From Cavenderia fasciculata (Eukaryota > Evosea > Eumycetozoa > Acytosteliales > Cavenderiaceae), in assembly GCF_000203815.1 (NCBI RefSeq), contig NW_004457729.1:3968674-4032673 (forward strand): 64,000 bases of DNA, given 5' to 3'. A program made the translations under genes and the position numbers. This document shows positions 32,936-57,131 of the stretch, one piece after another. The notes beneath the pieces were generated by a model. The model had not been told where the DNA came from. It saw nothing but the letters and a program-made list of their open reading frames with translations, and searched no databases. Each line of letters opens with the position of its first letter. The stretch's first letter is position 1.

Positions 32936-35583
32936 TTATTTATTTTTTAATTTTAATTTTTGTTTAGATTCAATTAATTTTAAAATACCTGGATGTTTGA
33001 TTGATAATAAGTAGTTGTAAGCTGATGAATTACCATTCTCTAATTCTCTATAGACAGTATCCAAGTTGATTGTTGATTTGTTACCAAATGACTTTAGAAT
33101 CATAATCCAACCACGTGTAATAGCACTGTCCAACACTGAACTGTCCAACATTGAATCTAGTTTTTTTTGGATTGATTGAAGCTAAATAAAGTGCCAATGA
33201 AAGATTACCATCGGAGAGAGTGGCACTCATGGCAATGGGTATAAATTTTCCTAGGTCTGGATAGGATTTTACCAAAAACTGTACAACACTTTTATGACCA
33301 TACCTAGCCGCATTTGTCAATGCCTCTGCTCCAGGACACCTAACATTACACTGTCTAAATAGATATTGTACAATTGATAGGTGACCTTTAGAAGATGCTC
33401 CTTCTATTGCATTTATGGTACATCCTTCTTTGCGATACTGGTGTAAATAAGATACAATGTCCAAGTATCCATTTTCAGCTGCTCGATCCATAGCATCTGT
33501 TGTGCATCCTTCACTTCGATTGGAATGTAAAAATTTAATTATATTCAAGTACCCGCCGTTGGCAGCCATATCCATCGCACGTTTAGTGGCCATTGGTCTA
33601 TCTTTAACGTGATTGTGTAAATACTTTATAATATTTAAATGTCCCATCGATGCAACTTGATCAATTGTATTAATTGAACATCCTTCACTTCTATTATCAA
33701 TGAGATATTTCAAAACATCAAAGTGTCCCATTCTAGCACATGTAGTCACTGTATCTGCACAACAAACTTCTGTTCTATTTTCATTTAAAAATCTAACAAT
33801 CTCTAAATGATTTCCTTTTGATGCTTCTTTAATTGCATTTAAACATCCTTCTGTTCTATTAAAATGTAAAAACTAAAAAAGAAAATAAATAAATAAATAA
33901 TTAAAATATTTATCTTTAAGAGTTGTATATATATATTTACCTTTACAATATCAAAATGACCATTTTTACTAGATTTATCCAATGCATCTTTTGAACAACC
34001 TTCAGTTCTATTATTATGAAGAAATAATAATATATCCAATCTACCTTTAGATGCTGCTGAATCCATTGCTTCTTTTGTAAATGGTTTCCCATTCTCATGT
34101 AATAATTCAATAATTGATAAATGTCCATTAAAACTATAATTAAAAACAATTAAATTAATACTTGATTAATCGATTAATATTATTAATTTATATTTACCTT
34201 GCCATACGAGAAGCTTTAAAAGTACAAGGAAATGATTTATCAATTAGATATTTAACAATTTCGTAATGACCAGCTTTACTTGAACTGTCAATTGCTTTTG
34301 ATGTTCCTCCTTCTTTACGATGTTCAATGAGGTATTGAACAATATTGAGGTGACCATTTTTAGCGGCCTTATCCAATACCTTTGGTGTAAATGGATTGAA
34401 ATCTACTAAATTACAAGTGGATTGATATTGATGTAATAGTTGAATTACTTTGTAGTGACCTCTTGTTGCTGCAATTAGACAAGATTCCTTTGAAAATCTT
34501 TCAACCAATTTATTGGTCAATAAATATTCCACCATCTCTGCATGCCCATTCTCTGCAGCCCAATCAATTGAAAGATCTGAACATCCTTCTGTTCTATTCT
34601 CTCTTAGAAATTTAACAACTAAACAAAAAAACAAAATAAAATATTAAATTAATTAATTAGATTAAATTCATATTATATGTATGCTATGTTGTATATTTAC
34701 TATCCAAATGATTATTTTCACATGCATAATCCATTGGAGATGTAGTTATACCTGTTAAACCAATTCCATGTAAATACTAAATAAATAAAAATATTAAATA
34801 AAGTTAATCATATGTGACACATAGTATGTCTAATTTCAACTCGTTTCATACCTTTACAACATCAAGATGACCATATCTCGCAGCATTGAAAAGAGCATTA
34901 TTATGAGAATAGTTATTCTCTTTTCTTATTTCAATGAGCCATTTTAAAATTGACAAATGACCATTTAATGAAGCTTCTACGACTGCACGCTTGGTTGTAC
35001 CCTCTAGTCTATTGGCATGCAACCATTGTACTATGTTTAGGTAACCTTTTTGAGAAGCTAGACACATAGCATTGGTAGATGCAACGATGGTATCACGATA
35101 ACGATTGTGAAGGTATTGTAGAATATCTAGATGACCAGCCTCTGACACATCATCCAACACATGACTATTTGGTTCAAAATCTGGTGACCACTTGTCGATC
35201 AACATTTCAAGAGTTTGAAGAGTTGCATTTGGATGTGAACAATAGAGATTGATTGCAATCGATCTTTTGCTATCATCTATTGTATCTTTTGGTGGTAGAT
35301 AGTGTTTGACAAAATGCCAAGGTAGAGCGAATTTAGATACCAGGTCAAGTTGTCTTGAATGCCAACGTTCACTTGTAGCATGTTGTATGATCTCTTTGCC
35401 TTTGGTAAATAGTAACTTTTTAGTTTGCATATAGTAGTTATCTACATTGTTGGGTGTATCTTCTAAACTGGCTCTTTCAATATCCGAAACGACACCAATC
35501 TCTTTAAATATCCTATTCCTAAGATACAATGATCTAAATATATTATTAATTAATAATATATTAATATCAATATTTCTATTCAT
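32936..35583 (-). CDS. Ankyrin-like repeat protein, 5 exons, frame broken at an A8 run
   Basis: Exons are 35583-34852, 34776-34701, 34618-34198, 34133-33941 and 33872-32936. The start is ATG at 35583 (MNRNIDINIL). The family module (FVKHYLP, YCSHPNATLQTLEMLIDKWSP) is followed by about eighteen ankyrin-like units, many with NR[TS]EGC. Introns 1 and 4 follow a unit-closing VK in phase 0. In the last exon, coding sequence continues past residue run ASINPKK only if one base is removed from an A8 tract at about 33163-33170. The continuation (KLDSMLDSSVLDSAITRGW to the stop at 32936) has normal protein character. Either the gene encodes a shorter form ending at 33081, or the tract is a sequencing slip or a real recent frameshift. 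Full product about 785 aa. Confidence 0.82.
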
Positions 35584-35900
35584 CCTTATTGTAAATGTTA
35601 ATAGTAGCTGCAAGTGAACATTCGTAGAACTTCAATTGTGTGAATTATAAGTTTCTCAATTTTTTCGCTATGAATAACATTCCATTGAAAGATGATGATC
35701 CAACTCAACCCAATTTTTTAATTTACATACTTGTACAGATAGACAAACGCGAGATAATCGAAACTTTGTTATCAAACTTATCATTATAGTAATTAGACCA
35801 ATATATCATAGTCATTGTACATAAGATTTGTTGCATTGATATCCTATATTTATGACTAAAAGAGAAAGTATGTACAAAAACAATTTATAGCCAAAAATAA
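35584..35900. other. Spacer between the ankyrin-like gene and the foreign-looking ORF
   Basis: AT-rich at the ankyrin-like end, where its promoter should lie. No convincing 5' exon for the downstream ORF was found here, although short ATG-led stretches such as that at 35852 exist. Confidence 0.4.
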
Positions 35901-37589
35901 ATCACCATTACTAACTACCAATTTGTTAAAGAACTCCATAAAAAACTTTATCAAGACTTTTGTGATCGATCCAAAGAGGCTAACATTAAAGGAAAGAATA
36001 CAGATTGTAGACAAAAATCGTTTCAAGAACACTCTCGCAGAAAATATCGCAAAGATGACAAGTTGCCACTCGATTGTGTGTTTGATTTGGTCATCGGAGA
36101 AGATCACTATACCGCCTTTCAAGTGTTTAGCGCTGCGAAAGCCGCTTCGGAATGCTTTAAAAAGAAATCAAACACGAAATCCTATCAGTCTTTTCCTCTT
36201 TGGACGATCCACCCGATCAATATCCTCCACGGAATCGTAGCCGAACACATGCTTAAAAAAGATGATAACCATTCTCTTTTTATATGCCGGGGACACTTTG
36301 TCCGTGTCAACAACAACGACCCACACCATTCTGACCACAAGAACTATGCATATTGTATCCTCCCCTCCTGCCCAGATGTGTACAAAGTAGACGATAGTAC
36401 ATGGACAGCACCTGAAGATCTCAAAACAACTATCATTCAGTGCCTTCGTGATAAGACCATCCCCCAAGACCTCAAAACCGCAGTCTGGATTTGTGCATTC
36501 GTGGCAGCCATGATGACCATAGACTCTCGTCTCGTTGGTTCCACCGACTTCCAGTTCATACGCCTCCACCCCGTTGCTGGACCAGTAATGCGAGAGTTCA
36601 TGTTATCCTTTCGCCAGTGGAATGCGGAGATCACCAACATCAAAGAAACGAAAGGAATATTATTTATTTTTTTATATTCCTATCGTTTTGCTCACCAGAT
36701 ATGGGAAAATCTCTCACCCAAAATCTCCAGCCAGAGCATAAAACGGAGTTACCCAGCCTTTGCCTCGCAATTACAAGCTTTACAAAATAAAGTGGTTCGT
36801 ATTATCACCCCAGGTGAAACGGAGATAAGTCCAGGTAAAAGTTTGGTGGATGCTTTTGCTCAGGACATCATGGATATTGGTCTCGGAAAGACTTTTCTTG
36901 GAATCCCATCCACTGTACTCCCGAGCCCAACACCATATTCTACCAAAAAATATTTTGACGAGACGATAAGAAAACCAATTTTCCGGGATTCAAGCTCTGA
37001 TCCGTCAATAAACCCAGGTAGCGCGTTTGCTGAGATTGCAGTCGGCATGGCATTCTCTGAGCTAGTCAGGTATGACCTTGCTCTGATGGATACCATTTGC
37101 TTCTCCCAGTTACCCCTCAACAAATTCGAGTCCCAAGACCAGAGATATTACTCTGAGCACCCGCACCCTCAAAAGAATAAATCTTGGACCTCCCCCTATG
37201 GTGATATGGTAAAGAACAATAGGTGGGCAGGTACTTGGCCAATGTCACACAACGGATCGGTGGCTGATGCACAAAAATCAGCTGGTGATGATGGACGTCT
37301 TACTGCCGTGGAGCTCAAATCCATGCGGCTCTATGTCCGCAGCATTCTCGTGGAATCAGAAGATGCATATATGTGTCCTCGTTGGCTGATTGATGGTGTG
37401 GATACGAGGAAAACACTCGCAACAACTGTTGCTCCTAAACTGCTCGTCGAATATTTTTCAAAAGAGATCGATTTTTTCTCACGTCAATCTTTGGATAGGG
37501 AGTGTTTGTTAAAACCAGATGTATCTGATTTCCAAAGACAGTTGTACGACATTTTAATACGTTCTCTGCCAAAAACACAACGCAATTAA
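35901..37589 (+). CDS. Compositionally atypical ORF of unknown family (possible transfer or mobile-element gene)
   Basis: One frame is open from 35901 to the TAA at 37589, 562 codons. The protein has normal globular composition with no Asn/Gln runs: YQFVKELHKKLYQDFC, CVFDLVIGEDHYTAFQVF, PLWTIHPINILHGIVAEHML, CILPSCPDVYKVDD, LHPVAGPVMREFMLSFRQW, MAFSELVRYDLALMDTICF, YMCPRWLIDGVDTRKTLATT. Codons such as CTC, CCC, CGC and GCC are frequent, and local GC is near half in places, unlike the lineage-specific neighbours. No in-frame ATG precedes about 36249 although coding character begins near 35910. The 5' end is therefore either an unfound exon or missing. I recognise no domain. It abuts a fragment of an LRR/TIG/EGF gene on its 3' side. 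Horizontal transfer or a mobile element are both possible. Confidence 0.6.
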   Translation: MTITNYQFVKELHKKLYQDFCDRSKEANIKGKNTDCRQKSFQEHSRRKYRKDDKLPLDCVFDLVIGEDHYTAFQVFSAAKAASECFKKKSNTKSYQSFPLWTIHPINILHGIVAEHMLKKDDNHSLFICRGHFVRVNNNDPHHSDHKNYAYCILPSCPDVYKVDDSTWTAPEDLKTTIIQCLRDKTIPQDLKTAVWICAFVAAMMTIDSRLVGSTDFQFIRLHPVAGPVMREFMLSFRQWNAEITNIKETKGILFIFLYSYRFAHQIWENLSPKISSQSIKRSYPAFASQLQALQNKVVRIITPGETEISPGKSLVDAFAQDIMDIGLGKTFLGIPSTVLPSPTPYSTKKYFDETIRKPIFRDSSSDPSINPGSAFAEIAVGMAFSELVRYDLALMDTICFSQLPLNKFESQDQRYYSEHPHPQKNKSWTSPYGDMVKNNRWAGTWPMSHNGSVADAQKSAGDDGRLTAVELKSMRLYVRSILVESEDAYMCPRWLIDGVDTRKTLATTVAPKLLVEYFSKEIDFFSRQSLDRECLLKPDVSDFQRQLYDILIRSLPKTQRN

Positions 37590-37669
37590 AAAGTTAAATT
37601 CAATGTATGTACTCTCACATCTATTGAGTCATATTTAATCTTATTATTTATTCTTTGTTTATTTTTTAG

Positions 37670-37915
37670 ATTTCAATTCAAGTGTAAATACAACAACGGA
37701 TCCATTAAAACCAACAACCTCATTTGATATTAATGGTGTTGATTTCCAATTTGAAATTGTATAAATTCAAGAGTTAAATGAAAATGAAGAAATTGCAAAA
37801 CAATTATTAGTAGACAAATGGAATTCAACGATTACAACAATCAATCCAACAACTATTACCAATCTAAAATATTCAAAATCTGTAAAACTACAATTAAAAA
37901 AAAGAGCGAAATAAT
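37670..37915 (+). pseudogene. Fragment of the last exon of an LRR/TIG/EGF surface-protein gene
   Basis: It begins at an intact TTTTTTAG acceptor and reads FNSSVNTTTDPLKPTTSFDI, as in the last exons of the two intact copies. An in-frame stop interrupts it after about 29 codons. It then jumps from the TTIN region directly to the juxtamembrane/cytoplasmic tail (KYSKSVKL), so the extracellular domain and membrane segment are deleted. A GTATGT donor-like site just upstream (about 37602) suggests the preceding intron was kept too. Confidence 0.75.
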
Positions 37916-38274
37916 AAAAATATAATTTTTTTACTCTTCGCATCGCACCATGATAATCAAGCTTGATTACAATTGTAAAAATTTTACTTTTACATTTCTT
38001 TTTTTTTTAATTTATTTTTTATTAAAATGAAAACACTTCACATATATAGATAATTGCAGTCTGTGTCAACAGACAAAGTCTGCAGATCTGAAAGACATCG
38101 AAAGAAAAGATCAGAGAATTCGAGCGCAGCTGGGATACTTCCAAAAACAACTAATTTTTTCGATTTTTCGTATGTTTAGTTGTGCTCTTAACATACGAAA
38201 CCTAGTCTGGCGAAGTCTTTCGGTTGGTTCTAGAATAGAAAACAACTAATAGATCAAACCATAGATAAAAATAA
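37916..38274. other. Spacer with stem-forming segments between two pseudogene pieces
   Basis: Contains a nested hairpin at 38055-38084 and a perfect 11-bp stem at 38166-38200 (listed separately), embedded in a locally GC-richer block (about 38055-38235). No ORF. Confidence 0.4.
38055..38200. other. Paired hairpins, candidate structured RNA or element end
   Basis: TGCAG/CTGCA (38055-38059 with 38080-38084) encloses GTCTG/CAGAC (38059-38063 with 38070-38074). Further on, TTTCGTATGTT (38166-38176) pairs perfectly with AACATACGAAA (38190-38200) around a 13-base loop. No known RNA class is recognised. Confidence 0.35.
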
Positions 38275-40610
38275 ATAATCAACAACAATACATATTTCAT
38301 AATATCAGCTATTTTATTGATTTTTGGAAGAGTATGTGTATCACAAGAATTAATTCTTTCGCAATCAGAATGTATGTATTATCAATTAGAATGGTAAAAG
38401 ATATCGATATCTTATATTAATCTTTGTTTAATCTTTTTTAGTGAATAGTGCAATCTTTAAAATTCAACAATTTGGAATACCTGCCATACCACAAGATCAA
38501 TCACTTTGTAATTATGGACCACCTGCTATATTTAAATGTAGTAGTGGTACTGGAGGAGGATATCATATTGATTCAATGTAATATATATATCTATATCTAT
38601 ATCTATATTTACTTTAATTTTTATTAACTATTCCTCTTTTGCAAAATTAAGATCAATAACAGGAGTAATATTTACAAATGTTGGAGATCCAAATGTAACA
38701 ATACAATTAGATTTTCCACAAGTTACTTCAATCTATTTATCCAATACACTTGTTAGAAATACTAGTATTAATTTTTTAGATTATGTCAAAAATCTACCTT
38801 TTTTATCAAAATTTTAGTATGTCTTTATAAATTATCTATTTTACTTTTGACTTTAATAACTTTTCTTTTTACTTTTTAGTACAGGAGTAAATACATTGGT
38901 AAATGTTCCAAATGATTTCTTATCAACTATGCCAAATATGAGAATTTTGGAATTACATCAAATATCAAACATACCGAGAGGTATATTAAATCATCCTGGT
39001 TTGACTTTACTTTCATTGGGAGCTACTGCTTTGAAACAGCTGGTATAAATGAATCGACGGTCAACCTTCCATCATTACAAACATTTACACTCAATTTTGT
39101 ACCGAGTGCACCTGAAACGATTTCAATTACACCAGAGACAATGCCAAAACTTACTTTAGTTTAAACGTTGGAAGAGTGCAAAAGTTACAGTTAAATTAAA
39201 CTCGTCAACTTGTACAGCATTGGTTTTGACTGGTGGTGCAGACAAGATTTTTGTGTACAACTGGTACATCCAGAGGTATTGGGTGATTTTTTTTTATCTG
39301 GAGCCCTAACCACTTGGACACCAAAAGATTTTAAATATTATCCAAATGTATTTTCTCTTTATTTCATGGAGTCAATTTTTGACAATATCCAATCACCAAT
39401 GCATACCCTCCAAAATTAACCTCTCTTGCCATTGTCTTTTCTAATTTAACAACTATTCCAAATATCCCTTTACCTCCTTCTTTAAATTTATTGTATGTAT
39501 AAAAAGAAAATATTAATTTAAAATATTTTATTTACTCTTTTCTCTCTATTTATAGTCAAGTATTTTCAAATAATCTATTAAATGTTCCATGGGATATTTT
39601 TAATAATACAAGACCATCACTTCCAATTGTATTGACTGATAATGATAATCTTGTTGGAACAGTTCCAGAGTCAATGTGTAGATTCAAATTAAAGATTCAA
39701 AATACCTCTATTACAAGTGTTCCATCATGTTTTTGGTGTTATCCAGCTTTGGATCAAGTCTTTGTAACTAGTCTTGAAAGACCTCCCAATTTCATTTGTC
39801 CAGTAACATTTGATAATCAAACCATTGTCACTAGGGCTGGAGAAGGTTTGGTGACTGGGTCAGATTTGGGTTGGGGGTTTAAAACCAGTGAATATACTCT
39901 TTTACCAATCATCCCAAACCAAAGTTTAAAAATTCAAATACCAAACTTTGGATCCTATCTTTTAGCTCAACCAAAGGTTTTATCAGTAAACCTTTCAACC
40001 AATGCCAATACATCTTATAATCTAAATGTATTAGAAGCCGGTATCATCCTTTCTCCTCTTTACACAATTTCACCTATACTCAACAACCATCCAATCTACA
40101 ATTCATCATTTTATTTCAAAATTTAAATTTAAATCTACAACATCAAGTTGGATTAAATTCTTCATTACCTTGTAATATTTTATCAATCTCTTCAGTCTCT
40201 ATTACTTGTAATACTAGTAATATACCTGATCCTGGTAGTATTAAATTATTTATTTAATTTTATTCCAAGTATGTTTAAAAATCAAAAAATCAAAGTAAAA
40301 TTATTTAATATTAATTCATTTACTATTTTTTTAGAATACCCAACAGTTACATCTGGAATTGTAAATGATAATAATAATAATTGAACAAAATTAATTAGTT
40401 TATATGGTTATTATGGTAATTTAAATCAAACCAACCCTTCTGTAATGATTAATAATACATTGATATGTAATATTGGATTTATAAATGATAGATTAATTAA
40501 TTGTACCATCGAAACAATTAATCAAAATTATGGACCAGCTTCTGTCAAAGTTCAAATGAATAATCTTCAATATTTTAAAAATGATGTACTTTATTTTTAT
40601 CCTCCCAACA

Positions 40611-40657
<47 letters not shown>

Positions 40658-41315
40658 AGATCTTTTAAAACAATGTCAAGAAACAACTTTGAATTGTTTT
40701 GGTAATGGTCAATGTAATGAGTTTGGTAAATGTGATTGTATTGAAAACTATAATCCAATTGATAATTGTTTAACAAAATGTATGTATTAAAAGTTCCAAT
40801 AATCATTTTTAAACAATTTATTTACTTTTTTTTTCCCAAATAATCAAAGTATTGAAATTTGTCAACAAGCAAGTGATGAAATCAAAAAAATATCATATGA
40901 CCTATCATCAAGTAGTATTCAATATCTAAGAGTATTAAAAGATGGAATTCAATTTACAGGTAGATTCTTGGATTATATTGTATCTGATGGTCGTAATACC
41001 TATTCAAGAACACAATTAGTATCATTAACACCATCAGAACAATCAACCACGGAATCTATAGCATTGATTGGTATTTTATTACCACAATGTCAATCATGTA
41101 TTATTGATCCTGATTTTACACCTTTGTTGGTTGATACAAGTCAAAGTCAATGTGGTGACAACCCATCAAATAATAACACATGGAAGATTATTGTTGGTGT
41201 AACAATTGGTGGAGCCATATTTATTGCTGCTATTACAGGTTTAATTATTTATGCTAAAAGATATACCAATATAAAATATTCAAACTCTGTAAAGTTGTCT
41301 AAAATGAATCAATAA
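38275..41315 (+). pseudogene. Degenerate LRR/TIG/EGF surface-protein gene
   Basis: Homologous throughout to the intact copies at 46942-50567 and 53229-56785. The codon matching their ATG is ATA (38275). The first exons, splice sites and the domain with MCRFKLKIQNTSITSVPSCF are recognisable. The reading frame is lost in the LRR-like part (about 39040 and 39160) and again in the TIG region (about 40110-40250 and 40382). The first half of the last exon, including its acceptor, is deleted, so exon 8 (EGF-like, FGNGQCNEFGKCDC) is followed by intronic sequence running straight into the distal ectodomain. The final part (membrane segment IIVGVTIGGAIFIAAITGLI and tail) is intact. This is a host gene copy decaying after duplication. 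Confidence 0.85.
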
Positions 41316-46941: not shown

Positions 46942-47922
46942 ATGAAATTATCTCTATCAATCTTTACACTATTTCTTTTGCTACTCTTACTACTAAACAG
47001 CAGTTACTATATCAAAGCACAAACTCTTTCACAATTAGAATGTATGTGTATATGTTTCCCATTTTTATCAAGAATGAATTATTAACTGATTGTTATTTTT
47101 TTTCTTTCTTTCTTTCTAGTGGATAGTGCAATATTTATAATTAAACAATATGGAATTGAAATACCACAAAACCAATCATTATGTAATTATGGATCACCTA
47201 TAGTTTTTGAATGTATCAATAGTAGTAGTGATAATACTCATCACATTAACAAAATGTATATATATTTTTTCAAACACTACCTTTACCGACACTATAACTT
47301 TGTTTTTTTTTTTTTTTAGAACGATAACAGGAAATAATTTTATAGATGTTGGAACACCAAATGTAAATCAAGTATTTGATTTTCCAAGACTTGATTCATT
47401 TTACTTGACAAAAAGTGTAACAAAAAATTATAGTATAAATATATTGGAATATTTTAAAAATGCCCCTTCTATTAAATCATTCTAGTATGCAAAAAATATT
47501 ATTATTTTTAAAACCATTGTTGTTAACCATTTTCTTTTTAGTATAAATGGACCACAAACCACAGTACCAAATGAATTCTTTTCAATCATGACCAATCTAA
47601 CCACAATACAATTTCTAACACTACAATCTCTACCCAATGGTATTTTTAATAACCAAAATTTAAAAAATATTCATATAGGAGGACCCTTGGCAAGTCTTGG
47701 GATCAATGAAACTACCAATCTTCCCTTGTTGGAAACCATAAACATAGGTTTTAATCTAGCTCTTCCCGAAACTATTTTATTCTCTCCCATTTCCTTTCCC
47801 AAATTAAAACAAATCAATCTATTTGGATCTTCTTTAAAAGTAGCCACTGTCATTGTCAATATTCCAACTTGTGAATTTTTGTATGTAAAAAAAAACAAAA
47901 AAAAAGAATATTGATTTTTAAA

Positions 47923-47955
<33 letters not shown>

Positions 47956-50567
47956 ATCAATTGCAGGAAGTACCAAAACAGTAAGATATGATTTAAATAT
48001 TTCCAATCCAGAGACTCTAACTACACTTTATATGAGTGGTCCACTCACAACTTGGTTCCCAAAAGATTTTAAACTATATCAAAAACTTGCTTCTTTGTAA
48101 CTATATAAGAATCATTTACATTATTATTATTATTATTAATTTATTAATTTTTTTTTTTTAGGTCATTTAATGGGATCAATTTTACAACAGAAAATCCAAT
48201 TATAGATTATCCACCAAATCTTTTCTCTCTTGCCATAACAAATACCAATATGACCACTTTTCCACAAATCCCTCTTCCAAAAACTTTAGGTTCAACGTAA
48301 ATACTATAGTAGAAACCCCCTTTTATTACTAGTTTATATTTATATTCTATTTTTTTTTAGACAATTATTTTCAAATAATTTTACAACCTTTCCATGGGAT
48401 TTATTTCAAGATTCAAAACAAATTTCTCCTATTGACGTATCTGAAAATCGTATACTAGCTGGAACAGTTCCAGAGTCAATGTGTAAATTCAAATTAAAAA
48501 TTCAAAATACCTCTATTACAAGTGTTCCATCATGTTTTTGGTGTTATCAATGGACCATACAAACCAGTCTTTTACAACCTCCCAATTTCATCTGTCCAGT
48601 AACATTTGACAATCAAACCATTGTCACTAGGAATGGACAAGCTTTGGTATATGGATCCAATCTAGGTTATGGAATCCAAACGATAAATTATACTCTTACA
48701 CTGATCATACCAAACTCTGTATTGAATATGAAAATACCCAGTTTTGCTCCATTTAAAACTTCACAACCACAGGTTTTATCAGTTAACCTTTCAACCAATG
48801 CCAATACATCTTATAATCTAAATGTAATTGAAGCTGGTGTAGATATTTTAAATATCAACAATGTAGATAATTTCACCTATACTCAACAACCATCAAATCT
48901 ACAAATCAAAATTTTATTTGCAAGTTTAAATCCAAATCTACAACATCAAGTTGGATTGAATTCTTCCCTACCTTGTAATATTGTATCAATTACTACAAAC
49001 TATATTATATGTAATACTAGTATTATACCTGATCCAGGTAGTTATAATATTACAATCTCAAATCAATATTATCAATCATTTTATTTATTTAATTTTATTC
49101 CAAGTATGATAAAAATCAAAAAATATTTAAAAATGATTTAAATTTAAAGTAAATAACTTAATTATTTTTCTATCTATCTTTTTTTTTCTAGAATATCCAA
49201 CAGTTACAGCAGGAATTATAAATGATAATAATAATAATAATAATAATAGATCAAAATTAATTAGTTTATATGGTTATTATGGTAATTTAAATTATTCAAA
49301 TACATTGGTATTGATTAATAATACATTGATATGTAATATTGGATTTATAAATGATAGATTAATTAATTGTACCATCGAAACAATTAATCAAAATTATGGA
49401 CCAGCTTCTATAAATGTTCAAATCGATAATCTTCAATATTTTAAAAATGATGTACTTTATTTTTATCCTCCAAACAAAAACAACAACAATACAGATCAAC
49501 TTTTAAAACAATGTCAAGAAACAACTCTAAATTGTTTCGGTAATGGTCAATGTAATGAATTTGGTAAATGTGATTGTATTGAAAATTATAATCCAATTGA
49601 TAATTGTTTAACAAAATGTATGTATTAAAAGTTCCAATAATCATTTTTAACAATTTATTTACTTTTTTTTTCTATAGATTTCAATTCAAGTGTAAATACA
49701 ACAACAGATCCATTAAAACCAACAACTTCATTTGATATTAATGGTGTTGATTTCCAATTTGAAATTGTATCAATTCAAGAATTAAATTCTGAAAATGATG
49801 ACATGGTACAACAATTAATAGTAGACAAATGGAATTCAACGATTACAACAATCAATTCAACAACCATTGCAAATTATTATTTAATTGTAAATCAAAGCGA
49901 GGTTACAATGCCATTATTAAATGTATCTGCTGTTATATCATATTCACCTAAAGCAAGAACAACGATGTTTGGGGGAAATGAAATCGAAATGAATCCAAAT
50001 TCAATCAAACTATCAATTGAAATTAATAATTGGGAATTTAATAGTAACATCAATTCGCTTAGAGTACTTTTCAAAACTAGTCTCCCAAATAATCAAAGTA
50101 TTGAAATATGTCAACAAGCAAGTGATGAAATCAAATCAATATCATATGACCTATCATCAAGTAGTATTCAATATCTAAGAGTATTAAAAGATGGAATTCA
50201 ATTTACAGGTAGATTCTTGGATTATATTGTATCTGATGGTCGAAACACCTATTCAAGAACACAATTGGTATCATTAACACCGTCAGAACAATCAACAACG
50301 GAATCTATAGCATTGATTGGTATTTTATTACCACAATGTCAATCATGTATTATTGATCCTGATTTTACACCTCTGTTGGTTGATACAAGTCAAAGTCAAT
50401 GTGGAGACAACCCATCAAATAATAACACATGGAAGATTATTGTTGGTGTAACAATTGGTGGATCAATATTTATTGCTGCCATTATAGGTGCCATCATTTA
50501 TGCTAAAAAGTATACTAATCTAAAATATAATATTTTTAAATTAAAAAATTTAAATAAATCAAATTAA
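46942..50567 (+). CDS. LRR-like/TIG/EGF cell-surface protein (ComC-like), intact copy 1
   Basis: Nine exons: 46942-47041, 47120-47255, 47320-47484, 47542-47880, 47971-48096, 48162-48296, 48361-49103, 49192-49617 and 49678-50567; 1019 aa. Exon 5 needs the acceptor GGAAG|TACC to keep the frame. The layout is: signal peptide (1-28); LRR-like ectodomain starting LDSAIFIIKQYGIEIP; a Cys-containing region (VPSCFWCYQ); a TIG/IPT-like domain (YPTVTAGI to DVLYFYPP); an EGF-like module (CFGNGQCNEFGKCDC); a distal ectodomain; a membrane segment (IIVGVTIGGSIFIAAIIGAI); and a short basic tail. It resembles dictyostelid ComC/Tgr-type adhesion and signalling proteins. Copy 2 lacks two of its introns (47881-47970 and 48097-48161). 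Confidence 0.85.
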
Positions 50568-51625: not shown

Positions 51626-52168
51626 TCTTTATCTCTTTTTTATTTATTTATTATACAAATTTATATATATTTAATGATGATTAATTAAAAGTGTTTTTGT
51701 GAACATCAAGATCATCCACAAAAAAAAAATTTTGAATAACACTTTTTTTTTAATTTATTTTTTTATAAAAACATAAATACAAGTGACAATTAATTTAGTA
51801 TTTCTTTCTTTTTCAAACATGAAACAACTTGTTCATTCAATCATTAATCTACATTTTCACTATATTTATATATTTCTTAAAAAAAGAAAAAAAGATTTAA
51901 AGGACAGACCTCGGGGGGGGGGGGGGGGGTTTCGTTCTTCGAGAAATGTGGGTCACCACATGTTAAGTTAATTTACTTTAGGAGATTTTAATAGCAGTAT
52001 GAGGTCTTGAGAATACATTTAATCTATTGTCGATATCAAATGCATCGAAATTTAATATACTTGCTACTTTTATGGGACTTATAAGTATTATTCTATGAAA
52101 ATTCTCATTGATTTCATTTTTATGTAAGACGCACAAACTAGTATTTATTCTCATATATTATATTATCT

Positions 52169-52205
<37 letters not shown>

Positions 52206-52210
52206 TCAAT
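51626..52210. promoter_or_regulatory. Divergent promoter region with poly-G and CT tracts
   Basis: Head-to-head spacer between proteasome alpha-4 and the orphan gene at 52211. It contains a 17-base G run (51913-51929) and a long CT dinucleotide tract (about 52174-52203) ending just before the orphan gene's start. No ORF is supported. Confidence 0.45.
51913..51929 (+). repeat. Poly-G tract (17 G)
   Basis: Seventeen consecutive G residues flanked by GACCTC and TTTCGTTCTTCG. It is the second such tract in the window. Confidence 0.8.
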
Positions 52211-53152
52211 ATGACATGTCATAATAGTAATTGTATACCATGGTCAACATTATTAGAATGTGACAAGGTAAAAGAAGAAATGTTGACAAAAGGAATAGGA
52301 ATTAGATCAAAAGGATATAAAGAATATATTAAACCATACAAGAAAAAGTTGAAGTACTTTATCAATTCATTGGCAGAGGCAATTGAATCAAAAGAGATTG
52401 CTGAACGTAAACTATACTCGATGAAGGATTTGTATCGATTGACAACTGTCTATGCTGACAAGGACTGTCATGATGACGATGGACTCAATCGATATGTGTG
52501 TAGGTTTTGTGACCCTGCACCTCTGCATTCTGGCAATCCAACACAATACTTTTCATTTTGGGAGGGCGAGCAGGAATGGAAGCTTGGAGGTGACCACAAT
52601 CGATACTCTTACGAGGTGTGTGTCATTAAACTATTGTGGCGAAGAAACAAAATGGCAAATATATTGGCATTGATTCAACGTGGTGGAGATCTTGATCTAA
52701 TGGACAATCTTCATGATTTTTGTGGTGGTTATGGACTGTACAATACAATGCACGAGTGTCTAAGGATGTATATATTTGTTAACCTTTATATTGCTGCTGG
52801 TACTGTCAATCAACAAAGACTCAATCCTAAAACGAAACGATTGGAATACCCAAAACATACAAGTGACACTTCTGAAAAATTGATAGAGTTTGATATCTTT
52901 GCACCATACCTAGAACCCAAACAAAGTCGGTACATGTCAACTCTACTCACAGATGATTATCATCAAGAAAATAATATCTCCAAATTGGCATTTAAAATGA
53001 TTTACAATTATAGTATGATGGCAAGAGAATGGGGTAAACCAAAAGATTGGTATACCGAAATTAAAATTGCTCTTGCTCATAATGATTTTAGTTTTAGATT
53101 CTTAATTCCTCTTTATTGGCAACATGATGATGAAAATGAAAATGAAGATTAA
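52211..53152 (+). CDS. Orphan 313-aa intronless protein
   Basis: A single uninterrupted frame begins MTCHNSNCIPWSTLLECDKV and ends in an acidic tail (DDENENED). It has several Cys (YVCRFCDPAPLH, FCGGYG), aromatic-rich stretches (QYFSFWEGEQEW) and a helical middle (SLAEAIESKEIAERKLYSM). There is no signal peptide or clear membrane segment. T- and A-ending codons match local lineage-specific genes. No family is recognised. The start is preceded immediately by a CT tract, a common promoter feature in this window. Confidence 0.75.
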   Translation: MTCHNSNCIPWSTLLECDKVKEEMLTKGIGIRSKGYKEYIKPYKKKLKYFINSLAEAIESKEIAERKLYSMKDLYRLTTVYADKDCHDDDGLNRYVCRFCDPAPLHSGNPTQYFSFWEGEQEWKLGGDHNRYSYEVCVIKLLWRRNKMANILALIQRGGDLDLMDNLHDFCGGYGLYNTMHECLRMYIFVNLYIAAGTVNQQRLNPKTKRLEYPKHTSDTSEKLIEFDIFAPYLEPKQSRYMSTLLTDDYHQENNISKLAFKMIYNYSMMAREWGKPKDWYTEIKIALAHNDFSFRFLIPLYWQHDDENENED

Positions 53153-53228: not shown

Positions 53229-56200
53229 TTATTTATTTTGTATTTTTACAGAGTTTGAATATTTTAGATTAGTATACTTTTTAGCATAGAGGATGGCACC
53301 TACAATGGTAACAATCAATACAACTCCACCAATTGTTACACCAACAATAATCTTCCATGTGTTATTATTTGATGGGTTGTCTCCACATTGACTTTGACTG
53401 GTATCAACCAACAGAGGTGTAAAATCAGGATCAATAATACATGATTGACATTGTGGTAATAAAATACCAATCAATGCAACGGACTCTGTTGTTGGTGATT
53501 GTTCTGATGGAGTCAATGATACCAATTGTGTTCTTGAATAGGTGTTTCTACCATCAGATACAATATAATCCAAGAATCTACCTGTAAATTGAATTCCATC
53601 TTTTAATACTCTTAGATATTGAATACTACTTGATGATAGGTCATATGATATTGTTTTGATTTCATCACTTGCTTGTTGACATATTTCAATACTTTGATCG
53701 TTTGGAAGATTGGTTTTAAATAATACTCTAAGTGAATTGATGTTACTACTAAATTCCCAATTATTAATTTCAATTGATAGTTTGATTGAATTTGGATTCA
53801 TTTCGATTTCATTTCCCCCAAACATCGTTGTTCTTGCAAGAGGTGAATATGATATAACAGCAGATACATTTAATAATGGCATTGTAACCTCGCTTTGATT
53901 TACAATTAAATAATAATTTGCAATGGTTGTTGAATTGATTGTTGTAATCGTTGAACTCCATTTGTCTACTATTAATTGTTTTGCAACTTGATCATTTTCA
54001 TTTAATTCTTGAATTGATACAATTTCAAATTGGAAATCAACACCATTAATATCAAATGAAGTTGTTGGTTTTAATGGATCTGTTGTAGTATTTACACTTG
54101 AATTGAAATCTAAAAACAAAAAGAATAAATAAATAAATAAATTTTAAAATTTGATTAAAATTTTACATACATTTTGTTAAACAATTATCAATTGGATTAT
54201 AGTTTTCAATACAATCACATTTACCAAATTCATTACATTGACCATTACCAAAACAATTCAAAGTTGTTTCTTGACATTGTTTTAAAAGTTGATCTGTATT
54301 ATTATTATTATTATTATTGTTGGGAGGATAAAAATAAAGTACATCATTTTTAAAATATTGAAGATTATCGATTTGAACTTTGACAGAAGCTGGTCCATAG
54401 TTTTGATTAATTGTTTCGATGGTACAATTAATTAATCTATCATTTATAAATCCAATATTACATATCAATGTATTATTAATCAATACAGAAGGGTTGGTTT
54501 GATTTAAATTACCATAATAACCATATAAACTAATCAACTTTGATCTATCATTATTATTATTATTTACAATTCCAGATGTAACCGTTGGATATTCTATTAA
54601 AGAAAACAATTAATATTAAAGTTTCTGATAAAGAATTAATATGATGGTTATTTTTCTTTTTTTTTACAACATACTTGGAATAAAATTAAATAAATAATTT
54701 GTTTGATAATATTGATTTGAAATACTAATATTATAAATACCTGGTTCTGGTATAATACTATTACAAGTAATAGAGTATGAAGCGAGTAAAATGGTGGTAC
54801 AAGACAGAGAATAGTTTAATTGTACTTGATGTTTGAGATTTGGATTTAGACTTGAAAATAAAAATCGCAATTGTAAATGTGATGGTTGTTGGGTGTAGGT
54901 GAAATTGTTATTACTAGGTGATACAACTATACCAGCTTCTATTACATTGATATTATATGATGTTTGGGCATTGTTTGAAAGGTTTAATGATAAAGCCTTT
55001 GGTTGTGATAGATAATAGGATCCAAAGTTTTGAATTTGGATTTGTAGTACCGAGTTGGGTGTGATGGGAGTAAGAGTGTATTCACTGGTTTTAAAACCCC
55101 AACCCAAATTGGATCCATACACCAAAGCTTGTCCAGCTCGAGTGGCAATGACTTGATTATCAAATGTAACTGGACAAATGAAATTGGGAGGTCTTTCAAG
55201 ACTAGTTAAAAAGACTTGATCCAAAGCTTGATAACACCAAAAACATGATGGGACACTTGTAATAGAGGTATTTTGAATTTTTAATTTAAATCTACACATT
55301 GACTCTGGAACTGTTCCAATTAGATTAACATTCTCGCTTAATACAATTGGATTTGATGTTTTTACATTATTAAAAATATCCCATGGAAAACTTGTAAAAT
55401 TATTTGTAAATGCTTGACTATAAATATTTGATAAAAAAGAGTAAATACATTATTATAAAATATAATTGTTGTAATGTTATTTTTGTAGTACTACTATACT
55501 TACAATATCGAAATAGTAAGAGGTAAAGGGATATTTGGAATAGTTGTTAAATTTGAATAGACAATGGAAAAGGTGGCTAGGTTTGGAGGGTAGGATTTGG
55601 TGATTGGATATTCTGAAAAATCTACTCCTTGGAAATTGAGAGAAACTAAATTTGGATAATATTTCATATCTTTTGGTGTCCAACTAGTCAATGCCCCTGA
55701 TAAATAGATATCACCCAATACCTCTGGATGAACTATTTGTACATCAAAATGTTTGTCTCTGCCACCAGTCAAAAACAGTCCAAAAACAGTCGTAGAGTTC
55801 AATTTAACTGTTGTCTTGCTCGATGTTCCACTGTTTATACTAAGGTATTTGAGATTTGGCATTGTCTCTGGTGTAATTGAAATCGTTTCAGGTGCTCTTG
55901 GTGAAAAATTGAGTGACAATGATGCCAATGATGGAAGGTTGACCGTCGATTCATTTACACCAGCCGTTGTCAAATAAACCGCACCCAATGAAAGTTGAGT
56001 CAAACCAGTATGATTGAATAAACCTTTTGGTATATTGTTTGATATTCGATGTAATACTAAATTTCTCATATTTGGCAACATTGATAAGAAATCATCTGGT
56101 ACATTAACCAATGAAATTGCACTTGTACTATTAATAAATAAATAAATAAATAAAAGCTATTAGTTTTTTTAGTCTATAAATAAATAGATTATATTATGTA

Positions 56201-56785
56201 CAATACATACTAAAATGTGACCAAAGATGATAGATTTTTTACATAATCTAAAAAATTAATACTATTATTTCTAACAGACGTATGCGATAAATAGATTGAA
56301 TTGATTTGTGGAAAGTCCAATTGTATTGATGTATTTGGGTTTCCAACATTTGTAAATGTTATTCCTGATATTGTTCTTTAAATTTAATGAATGAATGAAT
56401 GAATGATTAAATAAAAGGAATGAATAATTAATTAATAATATTTATAAAGAGACTATATATATTTACATTGAATCAATATGATAACTTCCTCCAGTACCAC
56501 TATTACTACATTTAAAAATAGGAGATGATCCATAATTACAAAGTGATTGATCTTGTGGTATTGATGGTATTCCAAATTGTTGAATTACAAAGATTGCACT
56601 ATCCACTAATATTGATAATATTAAAGTTGGAATAAAAGATGTATTAATACCTTTTTCGATATATATATAAATCTATCTGTATATTTCTTACATTCTGGTT
56701 TTGAAAGAATTGATTGTTGTGATGTGCATACTCTTATAAAAATCAATATAATAGATGATATAATGATATGTATATTGTTGATCAT
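53229..56785 (-). CDS. LRR-like/TIG/EGF cell-surface protein (ComC-like), intact copy 2
   Basis: Seven exons: 56785-56692, 56605-56467, 56375-56211, 56127-55504, 55417-54675, 54593-54171 and 54109-53229; 1022 aa with consistent phases. The domain order is that of copy 1: signal peptide (MINNIHIIISSIILIFIRV), LRR-like region with VNVPDDFLSMLPNMRNLVL, VPSCFWCYQ, TIG-like domain, EGF-like FGNGQCNEFGKCDC, distal ectodomain, membrane segment (VGVTIGGVVLIVTIVGAI) and a short tail. Its exon 4 is uninterrupted where copy 1 has two introns. Similarity to copy 1 and the pseudogenes is uneven, the EGF-to-tail part being nearly identical, which suggests gene conversion. Confidence 0.87.
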
Positions 56786-57131
56786 TTTATTTGTATGTTG
56801 TTCTATGTTCTATGTTGTTGTTGTTGTACAGTGATCACTCAGATCATTGCGATATAAGTTCTACAAACCCAGGTCATCTGATCTCTTTGTTGTAGTACAT
56901 ATGTACCTGAAAAATAGTTGTCTATACAACCAGTCGTTCATCGTCTTTAATGGTCGACCAGTAGCATGCATTTCTGATCAAACACAAAACTGGGAAGAAA
57001 AGCTTATTTTTAACTCTACAACAAAAAATGTCATACTTTTAGCACTGGTCAAAAAAAAAAAACAAAGTACAATTATTGATGGGATATTTTGATATAAAAC
57101 AATAAATAAATAAATAAATTTTTTTATTATC

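Follow-up and report, generated by a model that had tools for sequence, protein, structure and literature searches.

A 562-codon open frame of Cavenderia fasciculata that matches no known family is probably a lineage-restricted host gene

Introduction

Cavenderia fasciculata is the present name of D. fasciculatum. A 64,000-nucleotide stretch of its contig NW_004457729.1, which was analyzed as a whole and is called the window here, carries a long open frame that raises the question of whether it is a host gene at all. The original prediction, made from the letters alone, described the frame as foreign-looking, with no recognizable family, no convincing start, and a broken surface-protein gene as its neighbor, and offered three origins, namely, a transferred gene, a mobile-element gene, or an undescribed dictyostelid family. 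We compared these possibilities in the host assembly, of which 31.0 Mb in 21 contigs was searched. The genome of D. fasciculatum was reported to comprise 31 Mb with 66.2% A+T in 25 supercontigs and 12,173 genes (PMC4334915), and strain SH3 of the species was cultured in a study of a developmental series (PMC5097433).

Results

The open frame occupies exactly positions 35901 to 37589 of the forward strand of the window and comprises 562 codons; the remaining five frames of the same stretch contain 16, 39, 18, 20, and 31 stops. In 200 first-order Markov simulations that kept the dinucleotide statistics, the longest open run in any of the six frames was 187 codons. As the openness of the frame lies far beyond this simulated maximum, it represents real coding sequence, present or recent, and the initial estimate of about 560 codons was confirmed. 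The longest run of N, Q, S, or T is 3 residues, and N+Q account for 8.2% (10th lowest of the 95 sampled host frames described below), in agreement with the earlier remark that Asn/Gln runs are lacking. An AT-rich stretch with the imperfect inverted repeat GGAATATTATTTATTTTTTTATATTCC was noticed by eye at 36654-36680 within the frame, which elsewhere is richer in G+C; GT...AG ends are absent, and the stretch does not disrupt the reading frame.

The first Met codon inside the frame is residue 117. A start may be supplied by a 16-base exon whose ATG lies 49 bases upstream of the open frame and which is followed by a short putative intron (Table 1). Excision of this intron joins the ATG exon in phase to the long frame and gives a protein beginning with MTKREKLHKK. 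The intron contains TACTAAC, the yeast branch-site consensus, whose end lies 16 bases ahead of the final base of the AG at 35930-35931; ACTAAC begins 22 bases from the 3′ end of the intron. Two ComC-type paralogues in the window have the same GTATGT at the putative donor of the intron that precedes their ComC_SSD exon. In a control with 3000 random genome positions, which was performed after the splice model had been found by eye and was not restricted to long frames, a GTATGT model was possible at 94 positions, of which one also had ACTAAC no more than 40 bases from the acceptor. Five further acceptors between 35955 and 36027 are in phase, and since the control was post hoc, the exact acceptor is a proposal only. 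Median intron lengths of 104 bases for D. discoideum and 78 bases for D. purpureum have been reported (PMC4683709), so that an intron of 64 bases appears short yet unexceptional. By sequence, host-type start and splice signals are thus present. The coding start probably lies outside the 562-codon frame, in the 16-base exon, and the first 31 bases of the frame would probably be intron. If the small first exon exists, a missing start is no longer an argument for foreignness.

Table 1. Positions in the window of the long frame, its proposed exons and its immediate neighbors
Feature	Position	Strand	Basis or remark
Inferred first exon of divergent ankyrin-repeat gene	34846..35583	-	Ank_2, E 1e-10
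39-codon ATG frame, possible upstream frame or alternative 5′ exon	35670..35786	+	Upstream intergenic region
Proposed first coding exon, 16 bases	35852..35867	+	ATG start, GTATGT donor directly after, phase fits the 35931 acceptor
Proposed 64-base intron	35868..35931	+	GTATGT ... TACTAAC ... AG
Main coding exon	35932..37589	+	With proposed exon 1 would give a 557-residue protein
ComC-type surface-gene remnant	37602..37914	+	Exon end, intron, shortened exon (about 37670-37914)

The 39-codon ATG frame beginning at 35670 was considered as the true first exon and rejected, since an exon ending at the donor-like GTAATT at 35789 would be in phase 2, which is incompatible with the 35931 acceptor; the phase was worked out by hand, and the donor scan beyond GTAATT covered the GTANGT type only. 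The first 38 residues of this frame matched nothing in the genome except themselves.

The predicted 557-residue protein has a mass of 64 kDa and a pI of 8.8. Hydropathy analysis revealed no N-terminal hydrophobic stretch and no signal peptide. Residues 189-207 reach a 19-residue hydropathy mean of 1.65; with a threshold of about 1.6, this stretch is a borderline candidate for a membrane span. Structure prediction from the single sequence of the 562-codon frame gave a mean pLDDT of 34.9, which is too low for use; the fold was mainly helical, a hint at most at this confidence.

Searches of Pfam, PHROGs, NCBIfam, and PADLOC gave no match to the frame at E≤10, and the prediction that it has no recognizable family thus held even at this permissive threshold. 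No relative was found among PDB sequences (best match an antibody, E 1.9), phage records (best E 4), or plasmids, and both the antibody match and the phage matches were judged to be due to chance. Scans of contigs used exact 8-residue patterns and are sensitive to close relatives only. With this sensitivity, viral contigs yielded no confirmed match, and none of the 11 pattern matches in bacterial and archaeal genomes was confirmed. A prokaryotic homologue was therefore not detected in bacteria, phages, or plasmids, with the bacterial and archaeal scan limited to close relatives. The profiles PF00945 and PF02123 matched neither the host genome nor any control genome and are therefore uninformative. 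In the literature listings examined, which could not be queried by a gene name, no such gene is named.

The lack of a family is common in this host. A 254-kb sample of the genome contains 37 non-overlapping frames of 400 codons or more. When these were compared with Pfam at E≤0.001, 10 of them, including the one studied here, had no match; by the curated cut-offs the number is 13 of 37, as three of the 27 frames with a match (L013:7252, L014:8287, and L015:131) fall below these cut-offs.

The same sample, which consists of the window and 19 further stretches and has a G+C content of 33.2%, served as background for codon use. It contains 95 non-overlapping stop-to-stop frames of at least 200 codons, the target included; at least one of these (L020:450-1196) looks antisense by eye, and none was dropped. 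The richness in C-ending and G/C-rich codons reported initially was reproduced: third-position C of the target is the 11th highest, and its GC3 of 0.438 is the 9th highest (mean, 0.294; standard deviation [s.d.], 0.107). Among the eight of 94 other frames with higher GC3 are those for WASH complex subunit 4, a CLC channel, and Uso1/p115. The typicality of the synonymous codons is the 5th lowest of 95. Of the four less typical frames, two have a host family (Uso1/p115 and the CLC chloride channel) and two have none, one being antisense-looking; WASH complex subunit 4 follows as the 6th lowest, with a nearly equal value. The target deviates by 1.4 s.d. from the mean on the first two axes of codon use. 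The distance that separates it from its nearest neighbor among the frames is the 7th largest of 95, and its TCC and CGC codons are more than 3 s.d. high. Its codons fitted a small reference set, pooled from the frames for ribosomal proteins and chaperonins in the window, worse than they fitted the background (−1.50 compared to −1.21), and high expression therefore does not explain them.

These results place the codon use of the frame at the edge of the host range, yet within it. This weakens the description as foreign-looking: the codons are unusual but stay inside the host range, and the frames for Uso1 and the CLC channel are less typical still. Compared with the host genes for WASH complex subunit 4, the CLC chloride channel, and Uso1/p115, the target shares low codon typicality and has a less raised GC3 (0.44 versus 0.49-0.57), but unlike these three it has no Pfam family. 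The frame with the codon use nearest to that of the target is L006:3115-4482 on the reverse strand, which has 456 codons and no Pfam family; in its second half we noted a Cys/His/Asn pattern that we take to be reminiscent of HNH nucleases.

Protein and DNA searches of the 31.0-Mb genome detected one copy of the target, a first look that very diverged copies could escape; the copy number, one of the checks proposed initially, is thus one as far as found. A possible paralogue at C3:501042 (E 0.165, 33% identity over 48 residues) was rejected: the match pairs the end of the target with an inner segment (about residues 121-168) of a 546-codon frame, the rest of which shows no resemblance to the target. 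Repeats around the gene are short A+T-rich pairs only. The nearest to a terminal pair is a 12-base A+T-rich inverted pair at 35712-35723 and 37584-37595 (92% complementary), which is one of 11 inverted pairs listed in 2.6 kb and therefore of a kind that chance gives. With respect to a target-site duplication, the longest exact direct repeat between the tested flanks was 6 bases, and Pfam contained no transposase, integrase, or reverse transcriptase family matching the target.

Upstream, the proposed ATG of the target is separated by 268 bases from the first ATG of the divergent ankyrin-repeat gene (35581-35583). Downstream, the broken surface-protein neighbor was recovered as a remnant of a ComC-type gene, whose shortened ComC_SSD-like exon (Table 1) has an internal deletion and is interrupted by a single in-frame stop; its paralogous counterpart at 49641-50564 matches PF22933 (ComC_SSD) with an E value of 3.6e-24. 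The ComC-type similarity starts no later than 37602, which leaves 12 bases between the stop codon of the target and this point (40 of the 56 candidate places were scored, and two of the places have their first match at query base 1963). The remnant shares 181 of 195 positions (92.8%) with either of two paralogues, and these share 187 of 195 (95.9%) with each other; the remnant therefore looks young. Upstream of the frame no ComC-type similarity was found, the sole tblastn match there having an E value of 0.85, which rules out a simple insertion that left both halves of the ComC-type gene. From one genome, the junction could have arisen either because the long frame moved in or because a ComC-type copy broke against it. 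With the ComC-type surface proteins the target shares physical adjacency only; it has no similarity to their genes, as all matches start at 37602 or beyond, short A+T-rich ones aside.

The window harbors a local cluster of ComC-type genes, one copy of which is broken, at about 37602-37914, 38265-41315, 47010-50567, and 53229-56796. A DNA search revealed at least 37 further ComC-similar places on contigs 1, 3, 5, 11, 14, 17, and 19, most of them on contig 17 or clustered. A second frame without a family, with 336 codons, lies between ComC-type genes at 52142-53152 on the forward strand.

Discussion

The long frame is probably a functional, single-copy nuclear gene of the host that is restricted to its lineage, an orphan without relatives in the collections searched. 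This reading, which is based on sequence comparison, accounts for an open frame beyond chance, in-phase splice signals, codons within the host range, and one copy in a genome whose long frames often have no family. Like other dictyostelid orphan genes, the target has an intact long frame, host-type splice signals, and no family; unlike them, it lies nearer to the edge of the codon range, and its N+Q content is the 10th lowest of 95. Features that speak against a host gene are the 5th lowest codon typicality of 95, the high TCC and CGC counts, the 7th largest distance to the nearest frame, and a 3′ end abutting a truncated gene, as a recent insertion or rearrangement would leave it. Of the three origins proposed initially, the undescribed dictyostelid family fits best, but only in the form of a single-copy, lineage-restricted gene.

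Such a gene would be transcribed rightward from a short region in common with its divergent ankyrin-repeat neighbor. The 16-base first exon would supply the start codon, and splicing of the 64-base intron would lead to the 557-residue protein. As hydropathy revealed no signal peptide in this basic protein, an intracellular location appears most likely, as does a function through binding to a partner, be it another protein or a nucleic acid; secretion or membership in a known enzyme family appears less likely.

It is rather unlikely that the gene was captured from a virus or another non-host source, kept by the host, supplied with a small 5′ intron, and joined to a ComC-type gene, the copy of which at the joint was lost. 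An isolated, intron-poor gene with atypical codons and without a relative in the genome, directly abutting a truncated host gene, would agree with such a history, and figure legends mention Polinton- and virophage-like genes of D. fasciculatum and P. pallidum (PMC3671162, PMC4642659). However, no confirmed match was obtained in viral contigs, phages (best E 4), plasmids, PHROGs, bacteria, or archaea, in searches that are weak for distant relatives and RNA viruses; host genes are equally atypical in codon use; and none of the 14 other window frames given to Pfam belongs to a viral family. With eight of 94 frames higher in GC3 and four with less typical codons, composition alone does not demonstrate a transfer. 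As a side observation, the type B DNA polymerase profile PF03175 had no match in the host genome at E≤0.01, and the control matched one of 14 genomes, with none over the cut-off. This contrasts with a published tree of protein-primed polymerases in which, according to the figure legend, D. fasciculatum is included (PMC4642659); a low sensitivity of the search or stretches withheld from the searched genome could explain the discrepancy. A bolder version is unlikely, namely that the target, with its host intron and its joint to a ComC-type gene, is a domesticated viral structural gene or the first known member of a new family and fold. Should the gene prove to have been captured, its junction with a surface-recognition gene would offer a clear-cut opportunity to date such an event in a social amoeba.

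A recent loss of function, with the frame still open because too little time has passed, is quite unlikely: the target adjoins a pseudogene, and the remnant looks young at 92.8% identity (181/195) to its paralogues, but 562 stop-free codons and a fitting start exon argue for an intact gene. Carriage by a transposable element, which could be suspected from a frame without a family beside a disrupted gene and from the 12-base inverted pair, is very improbable. A single copy was found in 31 Mb, the pair is one of 11 listed, no terminal repeats were recognized, exact direct repeats of the flanks do not exceed 6 bases, and no transposase, integrase, or reverse transcriptase family is present, so that the mobile-element reading is close to refuted.

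For the reading as a lineage-restricted host gene, the locus means that in the genome of C. fasciculata raised C-ending codons together with the lack of a family are no mark of foreignness, and that a seemingly absent start can be an exon of 16 bases.
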